NCBI GenBank assembly: GCA_938040735.1
Contig: CALHYE010000001.1
Span: 1 to 64,000 of the forward strand
Length of the DNA stretch: 64,000 nucleotides
Direction of reading: 5' to 3'
DNA from: an uncultured Bellilinea sp.
GTDB lineage: Bacteria; Chloroflexota; Anaerolineae; Anaerolineales; Anaerolineaceae
The position numbers were made by a program, and so were the translations under genes. Positions 56,882 to 63,310 of the stretch are shown here, in pieces; position 1 is the stretch's first letter; each line of letters starts with the position of its first letter. Under the pieces are notes generated by a model. It searched no databases. It saw nothing but the letters and a program-made list of their open reading frames with translations, and was not told the origin of the DNA.

Positions 56882-57427
56882 CTAGCTTTTGAAAGGAACG
56901 GATCGTAACAACAAAGCCGGCGGCGGTCGGTCGGTGGGGTCGTGGCTGTAATAGGCCAACAACACCTGTCCGTGCCGGTCGAGGATAAAATCGCCCCCCA
57001 GTTGATGCAGATCGCCACCGGTGGCGACCAGTTTTTCGCCCCGAATTAATTTTTTGGCGTAAAACCACAGCGTCGGTAAATTCCAGGTGCGGCGGATGGA
57101 GCGCTGCAAGCCAAAGGCCTGATACAGGTCTTTCTGCGGATCGAGCAGAATTGGAAAGTTGATCTGGGTAATTTCCAGCCAGCGGTCTAACCAGTAACCC
57201 TGCTCAAACGTGACAAAAGCAATCGAAATGCCGGCCTGTTCGAATTCAGCGTGAACGCTTTGCAACTGCAAAGCATGTTCTCGGCAGGGAATTCAACCCA
57301 AATGGCGCAGAAAAACCAGCAACAGATAGGGTTTCTCGTTCAGCAGGTCGGTAAGAGAGTAGAATCTACCATCGGCTGCTGGCAAAGAAAATGGTGCAAT
57401 CCGATCTCCGCGGCGTAAACCGTTCAT
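56882..57427 (-). CDS. Candidate selenoprotein: peroxiredoxin-like (AhpC/TSA-fold) with UxxC motif, TGA-Sec at codon 45
   Basis: Reading through TGA 57293..57295 gives MNGLRRGDRIAPFSLPAADGRFYSLTDLLNEKPYLLLVFLRHLG-U-IPCREHALQLQSVHAEFEQAGISIAFVTFEQ...; no other in-frame stop; SECIS-like hairpin downstream. Confidence 0.85.
57257..57274 (-). promoter_or_regulatory. Bacterial SECIS-like hairpin
   Basis: Minus strand GCTTTGC-AGTT-GCAAAGC, 7-bp perfect stem, loop AGTT with G at position 2, apical loop 25 nt after the TGA; further GAAC/GTTC pairing after a 2-nt bulge. Confidence 0.75.
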
Positions 57428-57432
57428 GTTAT

Positions 57433-57717
57433 TCAGGCTTCAACCCGAACGCCACGCCAGAAAGCCACGTAATCTTTGATCTGGCGGGCGGCTTCTTTGG
57501 GGTTGGGGTAATACCAGGCGGCATCCGGATTGCTTTGCCCGTTAACCACAATTGTGTAGTAACTGGCTTCCCCTTTCCATGGGCAGATGGTGTGGGTATC
57601 GCTATTTTCAAAATAATCCCAATGGACGGCAGAGGGAGGAAAGTAATGGTTGCCTTCAATGATAATCGTTTGGTCGCTCTCTGCTAAGACGGTATTGTTC
57701 CAAATCGCTTTTGCCAT
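57433..57717 (-). CDS. DUF427 domain protein
   Basis: AVHWDYFENSDTHTICPWKGEASYYTIVVNGQSNPDAAWYYPNPKEAARQIKDYVAFW. Confidence 0.92.
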   Translation of the reverse strand: MAKAIWNNTVLAESDQTIIIEGNHYFPPSAVHWDYFENSDTHTICPWKGEASYYTIVVNGQSNPDAAWYYPNPKEAARQIKDYVAFWRGVRVEA

Positions 57718-60232: not shown

Positions 60233-61369
60233 ATGAACACATCCCTGTATCCCGATATTTCCCGCCCAACTCTGTTGATTGACCCGCAGCGCGTCCATAA
60301 TAACATCCAGCGCATGGCAGAAAAAGCCAATTTATACGGCGTTCGCTTGCGGCCTCACTTTAAGACCCATCAATCGGCGCGGGTTGGAGAGTGGTTTCGT
60401 CCGTTTGGTATTGATGCGATCACGGTTTCATCGCTGGATATGGCGGCGTACTTTGCCAGGCATGGCTGGCAGGACATTTTGGTCGCATTTCCCCTCAATT
60501 TGCGTCAACTGGATTGGGTGCGCTCATTAAGCGCGTCAATCCGGCTGGGTGTGCTGGTAGAATGCGGGGAGCAGGTAAAGGCGCTGTCCGACTCCCTCGA
60601 AAGAGCGGTAGATGTGTGGATAAAGGTGGACAGCGGCAGCCATCGTACCGGCTTATTGTGGAACGAGCCCCTTAAGATTCTGGAATTAGCCCGTCAAGTC
60701 CGACAACATCGGCTGTTGAACCTGCGCGGTTTGCTGACCCATGCCGGCGAAACTTACCACAGCCTCAACCCGGCCGAAGTGGTGCAGCGTTTTCGCCGCA
60801 GCAACCAGCGCATGAACGAAGTGCGCCAATTTTTGGCACAGAACGGCATGAACGATCTGGAAGTGTCGGTAGGCGATACCCCCGGCTGCAGCCTGAGCGA
60901 TGATTTTGAAGGGGTGGATGAGATTCGGCCGGGCAATTTTGTCTTTTATGACGCCCAGATGGCGCGCCTGGGAGCCTGCCGGGAAACCGACATTGCGGCT
61001 GTGGTTGCCTGTCCGGTTGTGGCGCTCCACCCCGAAAGGGAGGAGGCGGTGATTTATGGAGGCGCCATCCACTTTTCAAAAGATACGGTGCAGGAAAACG
61101 GAGCGGCGGTTTACGGCTGGGCGGTACAACTCCATGGACAGGGGTGGGCGTCGCGCATCATGGGAGGCGCGCTGGCGCGCCTTTCACAGGAGCATGGGAT
61201 TCTGCGACTACCGGCGGAGGCGCTTTCTTCGTTGAGGATCGGCGGTTTAGTTGGAGTCATACCTGCGCATGTCTGCCTGACCGTTTCGGCGCTGGGCATT
61301 TACCGCAGCCTGCAAGGCGAATGGATCGAAACGCTGGTCAGGGCATCAACGCCAGCGGGACGGGGGTAA
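60233..61369 (+). CDS. D-threonine aldolase/D-serine dehydratase-like PLP enzyme (alanine racemase N-terminal fold)
   Basis: PTLLIDPQRVHNNIQRMAEKANLYGVRLRPHFKTHQS, DSGSHRTGLLW, GDTPGCSLSDDFEGVDEIRPGNFVFYDAQM, IPAHVCLTV. Confidence 0.92.
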   Translation: MNTSLYPDISRPTLLIDPQRVHNNIQRMAEKANLYGVRLRPHFKTHQSARVGEWFRPFGIDAITVSSLDMAAYFARHGWQDILVAFPLNLRQLDWVRSLSASIRLGVLVECGEQVKALSDSLERAVDVWIKVDSGSHRTGLLWNEPLKILELARQVRQHRLLNLRGLLTHAGETYHSLNPAEVVQRFRRSNQRMNEVRQFLAQNGMNDLEVSVGDTPGCSLSDDFEGVDEIRPGNFVFYDAQMARLGACRETDIAAVVACPVVALHPEREEAVIYGGAIHFSKDTVQENGAAVYGWAVQLHGQGWASRIMGGALARLSQEHGILRLPAEALSSLRIGGLVGVIPAHVCLTVSALGIYRSLQGEWIETLVRASTPAGRG

Positions 61370-62549
61370 ACACCAGCAAGAAGACCAGCAGGGTCAGCAG
61401 CCCTAACCGTTTGCGGCGCGGGTCGAGTTCGGTGATCTGGTCGAGCGGCTCGGCATACACCCGCCCGAACAAGAAGATTAACACAGCCCACAACCACCAC
61501 CCAGACCAGACGAACCCCAGCAGGCCGAGCGCCAGCAATACCAGAGGATAAATCCGCCGGGCGCGTTCCCGCCCGAACAGGACATAGAGCAGGTGTCCGC
61601 CATCCAGTTGACCAGCGGGAATCAAATTTAGCGAAGTGATCAAGATGCCGCCCCAGCCGGCCCATGCCACCGGATGGAGCAGAACGTCCAGTCCGCCATA
61701 TGGCAGCGGTTGGCCGGTAAAGATGTAGCGCAGCCAGTAAAGCAGCGGAGAAAGTCCTCCGTAATCGGCCGGTGCGGGTAAAAACTGCCCGAAAACCACA
61801 AATTTGAGCAGCAGGTAAAGGATGGAATTGCCTTCCAGTTGAGTTTGTCCCAACCCGCTGCCCAATGGCGCGGCCGGCAGTGGAGAAAGTTCAGAAAGCG
61901 ACAGACCGATCAGCAAGACCGGAATTGCCACAATCAGACCGGAAAGCGGGCCGGCGATACCGATGTCCATCAGCACCCGCCGGTTTTTGGGCAGTTCTTT
62001 CATGTTGATGAACGCGCCCAGCGTTCCAAACGGGCTGAGCGGGAAGGGCAGCGGCAGAAAATAGGGCAGGCTGACGGCTGCGCCGTGCCGTCTGCCGACC
62101 AGATAATGCCCAAATTCGTGGGCAGTCAGAATCGCCAGCATGCTGATGGCAAACGGCCAGCCGCCGCTGATGACGGCCCAAATAAATTCGGCCGCATTCG
62201 CCGGCATCTGCTCCAGACTCAGCATGCCGCCGGTAAACCACACGCTGATCAGCGTTAGAATGAAGAAGATCAGGTTGGTGCGGGGATTGGATGGACGCGG
62301 GGCCTGCCGGCTGGTCACAAAAATCACGGTTTGGCGGTTGTTTTCATATCGAAACAGCGGGGTCAAGCCCAATGGCGCCGCCGCTTCGGCCAGACGGTCA
62401 TAGGCTTCGGCCGTATCCGGCAAGATGATCCGCCCGTGGTATTTGATCATGAAGCCTTTGCGTTCATCCCCATAGGTAGTATCTTCGATGAAGAAGACTC
62501 GACGCACGGCCAGTTCGATTCGTTCATACAGTAAAGGTTGATCTTCCAT
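61338..62549 (-). CDS. Site-2-protease-like M50 metalloprotease
   Basis: AILTAHEFGHYLVGRRHGAAVSLPYFLP (HExxH) and LNLIPAGQLDGGHLLYVLFG. Confidence 0.92.
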   Translation of the reverse strand: MEDQPLLYERIELAVRRVFFIEDTTYGDERKGFMIKYHGRIILPDTAEAYDRLAEAAAPLGLTPLFRYENNRQTVIFVTSRQAPRPSNPRTNLIFFILTLISVWFTGGMLSLEQMPANAAEFIWAVISGGWPFAISMLAILTAHEFGHYLVGRRHGAAVSLPYFLPLPFPLSPFGTLGAFINMKELPKNRRVLMDIGIAGPLSGLIVAIPVLLIGLSLSELSPLPAAPLGSGLGQTQLEGNSILYLLLKFVVFGQFLPAPADYGGLSPLLYWLRYIFTGQPLPYGGLDVLLHPVAWAGWGGILITSLNLIPAGQLDGGHLLYVLFGRERARRIYPLVLLALGLLGFVWSGWWLWAVLIFLFGRVYAEPLDQITELDPRRKRLGLLTLLVFLLVFTPVPLALMP

Positions 62550-62592
62550 CAGTCCCTGTTTCCCTGTTGAGAATACCGGCAATTTGGTCAGG

Positions 62593-62686
62593 CGGGAATG
62601 GATGGGAGTCGAACCCACCGCGGCCCGCAACGCGGCCCGCCACCGGTTTTGAAGACCGGGGAGCCCACCGGGACCCTACCACTCCC
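62593..62686 (-). tRNA. selC: tRNA-Sec, anticodon UCA
   Basis: 94 nt; acceptor GGGAGTGG/CCATTCCC (8 bp, one G-U), G discriminator, anticodon arm CCGGT-CTTCAAA-ACCGG with UCA (62652-62650), long variable arm, T-arm GTGGG-TTCGACT-CCCAT. Confidence 0.93.
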
Positions 62687-62731: not shown

Positions 62732-63310
62732 TCAGGGTGAGATGACCCACTCATACGAATTGCTCAGATTGACCCCTCGAATTTCCGCAATCACATTCAT
62801 CTCACAATCCAACACCCGGGCATGAACCAGGGCGGGCGGCAGAAAGAATACCCGCTTATTGCCGGGCAGGATGCTCTCAACCTCACCCAAGCGGTCATTT
62901 CCCCATTCTTCGGTGGTTGAAATGTAAAGGTAGCAAATTTCCTGAGCGGTTTGGTTGGTCACCCGAAAAAGAGCGTTCCCCTCGCCGCCGATGATGATGT
63001 GGCGGTTTTGGGAGATTTTGGCTTCGGAATAAAGCGTGTCCTCTGAGCATGAGCGGATAAGCAGGTCGTATTCGCCCGCTTCAAGCATAAAGGTGTGACT
63101 GCCGCGGCTGGGGATTAATTCACCTTCGCCTAGTTGATTTTCTCCAAAATCTGCTTGCTGCGGTGGAGAAAAGTAAACCTCGCAAACAGGCAGGCTGCTG
63201 TGATTATCCACCTGAATTTCCAGCGGAGAGGTTTGACAGGCGCAAACAAGAAAGAACCATAAGCCGAATGTGATCCAGCCGTGTAAGGATCGTACCCCCC
63301 GCCTGATCAT
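62732..63310 (-). CDS. Putative secreted/lipoprotein of unknown function
   Basis: N-terminus WITFGLWFFLVCACQTS lipobox-like. Confidence 0.65.
   Translation of the reverse strand: MIRRGVRSLHGWITFGLWFFLVCACQTSPLEIQVDNHSSLPVCEVYFSPPQQADFGENQLGEGELIPSRGSHTFMLEAGEYDLLIRSCSEDTLYSEAKISQNRHIIIGGEGNALFRVTNQTAQEICYLYISTTEEWGNDRLGEVESILPGNKRVFFLPPALVHARVLDCEMNVIAEIRGVNLSNSYEWVISP

Follow-up and report, generated by a model that had tools for sequence, protein, structure and literature searches.

The question raised by this locus is whether a tRNA gene with a UCA anticodon, located in a 64,000-nt window (the whole stretch of DNA analysed here) from an uncultured Bellilinea sp., encodes a selenocysteine tRNA (tRNA-Sec, selC), and whether the organism carrying it decodes UGA as selenocysteine (Sec). 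The reading we favour, to which we assign a probability of about 0.96, is that of a conventional bacterial selC gene whose users would include a redox gene of the same window, carried by a member of the Anaerolineae (Chloroflexota) that decodes UGA as Sec; selD is presumed to lie in a part of the genome missing from the assembly, and it is from sequence that we infer the insertion of Sec.

The tRNA-Sec gene and its neighbourhood

ARAGORN reported a single tRNA in the window, a tRNA-Sec(tca) at 62591-62686 on the minus strand, and the sole Rfam match in the 64 kb at gathering threshold was to the bacterial tRNA-Sec family RF01852 (62594-62686, 71.7 bits, E 1e-12, against a gathering score of 47). 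The remaining RF01852 matches of this genome, at 30-37 bits with a maximum of 36.6, were ordinary tRNA-Gly, Asp, His and Gly genes. The tRNA body, G73 included, is 94 nt long (Table 1), and its MFE fold produced the bacterial 8/5 cloverleaf, in which an 8-bp acceptor and a 5-bp T stem were accompanied by a D arm with a 6-bp stem and 4-nt loop, an anticodon arm with a 5-bp stem and CUUCAAA loop, and a long variable arm of 4+4 bp flanking one mismatch. The fold energy was -50.1 kcal/mol (z -2.45), and 1 of 200 shuffles did equally well. When stem pairs were tallied by us on a MAFFT alignment of the window gene and 60 orthologues from named Anaerolineae loci, each pair was kept in 95-100% of sequences, and two-sided changes were seen in several of the stems.

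Table 1. Features of the window discussed in the text
Feature	Coordinates	Strand	Evidence
Putative SelL-related / AhpC-TSA-type redox selenoprotein gene, 181 aa, predicted Sec codon 45, GUIPC	56882..57427	-	PF00578 with one TGA, translation, NF040769
Predicted bacterial SECIS-type hairpin, 7-bp stem GCUUUGC/GCAAAGC, AGUU loop	57257..57274	-	Fold and covariation, 15 sequences
In-frame TGA, codon 45, predicted to be read as Sec	57293..57295	-	Translation, homologues
Peptidase M50 gene, conserved neighbour directly downstream of the tRNA	61338..62549	-	PF02163 70.8 bits; adjacency conserved
tRNA-Sec (selC), UCA anticodon, G73 at 62593, CCA not encoded	62593..62686	-	ARAGORN, Rfam RF01852, fold, stems in 60 orthologues
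Probable lipoprotein gene, upstream neighbour of the tRNA	62732..63310	-	Lipobox-like LVCAC in translation

The UCA anticodon, 8/5 fold, 6-bp D stem with 4-nt loop, long variable arm and G73 by which bacterial tRNA-Sec is defined are all present, as are the CUUCAAA loop and, elsewhere in the genome, SelA and SelB; the single difference from bacterial tRNA-Sec of RF01852 is that the 3' CCA, a usual and non-defining trait, is not encoded, and G73 is followed by CCT instead. ARAGORN, the Rfam model (which accepts the fold) and the folding itself thus agree with the first-pass annotation, which had described a tRNA-Sec of this length, anticodon, acceptor stem, variable arm and discriminator and had already read CCT in place of CCA. 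The 3' CCA is encoded by 93% of bacterial tRNA-Sec genes (PMC5330540). Among the Anaerolineae orthologues (loci L080-L159), 52 of 60 have GCCT, not GCCA, after the acceptor stem, and four further tRNAs inspected in this genome also lack an encoded CCA; its absence is unusual among bacterial tRNA-Sec genes overall and usual for this lineage. The GCCT trailer of the Anaerolineae genes is nearly invariant.

The tRNA-Sec gene lies about 44 nt from the start of the M50 peptidase gene (62549), on the same strand. On its other side, the product of the probable lipoprotein gene begins ...FFLVCACQTS... and had no Pfam match. The neighbours named in the first-pass annotation were hence correct, while the isolation it had attributed to the tRNA applies to the immediate neighbours only, as the putative selenoprotein gene described below is 5.2 kb away. 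Eighty named Anaerolineae loci (L080-L159) were gathered via the M50 protein, the closest being that of Bellilinea caldifistulae GOMI-1 (96% identity). The record of this cultured species (L080) contains both the tRNA and the UGA-bearing redox gene seen in the window. A same-strand tRNA-Sec was found in 60 of the 80, and in 57 of these, as we read the coordinates, it lay shortly upstream of the M50 gene; of the 20 loci lacking it, at least four end at a contig edge just upstream. Judged by these loci, the position of tRNA-Sec beside M50 is old and conserved and does not represent a stray insertion. That the placement reflects functional coupling beyond conserved gene order, for example co-transcription that ties the protease level to tRNA-Sec processing, appears improbable. 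Approximately 16 M50 loci, including that of Leptolinea tardivitalis (L095), have enough upstream sequence and yet no tRNA-Sec.

UGA-containing redox genes and a candidate SECIS hairpin

Standard ORF calling at 56882-57427 begins past an in-frame TGA and yields only a 129-aa ORF (56882-57271), which we would re-annotate as the 3' part of a selenoprotein gene of 181 aa. Translated with the TGA as Sec, the full frame reads RHLG-U-IPCREHA around codon 45, scores 154.9 bits against the NF040769 SelL-related redox profile (cut-off 120), and also matches PF00578 and PF13911. The TGA is kept at this position in 18 homologues of 38-81% identity, and eleven more distant homologues (30-34% identity) have Cys there. 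Comparison of the window gene with that of one relative (G005) gave pN 0.132 and pS 0.502 before the TGA, and pN 0.105 and pS 0.513 after it, values from which purifying selection is seen to act on both sides of the codon. Prx-like thiol:disulfide oxidoreductase selenoproteins (PF00578) carry UxxC or UxxU (PMC13188914); the window protein, with UxxC and a score over the NF040769 cut-off, shows no notable difference from them and would be one more member. A second TGA three codons on, giving UxxU, was observed in four of the TGA-containing homologues (L193, L194, L196 and L197, of relatives G124, G132, G136 and G045).

Bacterial SECIS elements are modelled with a spacing of 16-37 nt (PMC13188914), and the hairpin that follows the TGA fits this published range, its loop being 25 nt from the TGA, with G second in the loop and U next. 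In an alignment of 15 sequences, from which three longer-loop sequences and one near-duplicate of L185 were excluded, the stem covaries: 22 cells held two-sided changes compared with 7.8 (sd 2.2) after shuffling and no more than 6 in slid controls, and the covariation score was 0.558 against 0.230. Some of the invariance of the loop may come from protein constraint, since it encodes Gln-Leu codons; the matched changes in the stem are harder to explain by protein coding. The gene is likely a user of the tRNA-Sec.

The selenoprotein gene is preceded by DUF1684 and DUF427 genes, the latter of which, directly upstream, stops at an ordinary TGA (57433-57435). The first-pass annotation had called for all UGA-truncated genes of the genome to be re-examined; UGA continues to terminate ordinary genes, this one among them, which makes that proposal too broad, and candidates are confined to UGAs that have a SECIS hairpin and align with a Cys position of homologues.

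A search with PF00578 returned two genes of the source genome with one TGA each, namely the window gene and a second on contig C2, which reads NRGFM-U-PYC and whose TGA is kept in two relatives (G002 and G005). For three of four sequences folded, the structure predicted downstream of the C2-type TGA was a stem with an AGUU loop. Four molybdopterin oxidoreductases were matched in the source genome, none with an internal stop, so the users seen do not include the most common bacterial selenoprotein. GrdB (PF07355) had no match in the source genome or in eight relatives, but as control genomes likewise gave none, it may be present even so. As selenoproteins were sought by family, with few families and in an incomplete genome, two is a minimum.

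SelA, SelB and the missing SelD

The source assembly comprises 1.71 Mb in 29 contigs and is 76.8% complete. The genome search that had been suggested for the Sec machinery was rewarded in part: one SelA (546 bits, contig C19) and one SelB (359 bits, contig C13, profile positions 2-578 of 581) were found, each the only one over cut-off and free of stops, and UGA-containing redox genes were recovered as described above, whereas no SelD over cut-off was found in this 77%-complete assembly. The selA and selB genes are hence outside the window, on contigs other than that of the tRNA, in agreement with the first-pass annotation. Two weaker SelD matches were rejected against the cut-off of 125 bits. 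L010 (60.5 bits), which is part of a cluster of hydrogenase-maturation genes, is read as HypE, and L009 (G000:C10:21073-21810, 80.8 bits) appears as a HypE/SelD-superfamily paralogue of a kind also found in relatives with a true SelD.

Across the genus, SelD was present in the five members that are at least 91% complete, in every case with a single in-frame TGA in an SSCAGU or STCAGU motif, and was not found in three members of 71-77% completeness, these being the present genome and two others (71% and 77%). In genus members that have selD, the open frames next to it were identified as GGT-like and UvrC on one flank and as PriA on the opposite one. UvrC and PriA are near-universal in bacteria. 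Profile searches of the source genome returned neither of them over cut-off, and since near-universal flanking genes are missing as well, the simplest reading is that the selD segment is missing from the assembly. A gap of this kind is the best explanation of the absent selD, which would accordingly lie in the missing part. SelD matches were also seen in open frames of 740-800 aa without TGA (L055-L059, in G034, G016, G035, G022 and G010), which may be fusions of SelD with a further domain; a TGA-containing SelD is additionally present in G010, G016, G022 and G034.

Sec decoding in this organism and in the Anaerolineae

The absence of SelD from the source assembly and from two other incomplete members of the genus could be taken to mean that the lineage lost selD, and that the tRNA, selA and selB are the decaying leftovers. 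This is very unlikely: the genes flanking selD have gone with it, which points to an assembly gap, the tRNA stems, SelA and SelB are intact, and the UGA genes are still constrained past the UGA. Less probable again, to the point of being nearly negligible, is that the gene encodes a tRNA-Ser-like tRNA or an opal suppressor that reads UGA. The UCA anticodon by itself would fit a suppressor, but the 8/5 fold, the D arm and the CUUCAAA loop, an RF01852 score about which no other tRNA of the genome comes close (71.7 against at most 36.6 bits), the presence of SelA and SelB, and the continued use of UGA as a stop by ordinary genes such as DUF427 have already largely refuted it.

With a tRNA-Sec in a Sec-decoding organism as the preferred reading, both selA with selB and a selenoprotein gene with an in-frame UGA and SECIS-like hairpin have been found in this genome, supporting the earlier prediction that UGA is decoded as Sec. 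The organism almost certainly makes selenoproteins, like many of its relatives, to judge from the tRNA, from selA and selB, and from the UGA-containing genes with their covarying hairpin in the window. The selC transcript would be trimmed and its CCA added enzymatically, SerRS would charge it with serine, and SelA would turn Ser-tRNA into Sec-tRNA with selenophosphate supplied by SelD; SelB would then bring Sec-tRNA to those UGA codons that have a SECIS hairpin after them. No fewer than two redox genes of the genome, one in the window, look like users.

Sec use in the Anaerolineales has already been reported, Sec elongation factors and Sec-type formate dehydrogenases being described in single-cell genomes of the order and a Sec elongation factor in A. 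thermophila (PMC4959059). The trait and the order are the same here; in contrast, the users seen are AhpC/TSA-type redox proteins, and the molybdopterin oxidoreductases lack TGA. This Bellilinea relative thus very probably uses selenocysteine by means of an ordinary tRNA gene, and understanding of Sec decoding is unchanged. The distance of selA and selB and the lack of CCA, both mentioned in the first-pass annotation, are real, and neither is odd in this lineage. Of 61 genomes searched, 51 had a tRNA-Sec match exceeding the Rfam cut-off, although those that barely exceed it (47-50 bits) may represent other tRNAs with a long arm; in all eight genus genomes searched, tRNA-Sec was found at 70-73 bits.
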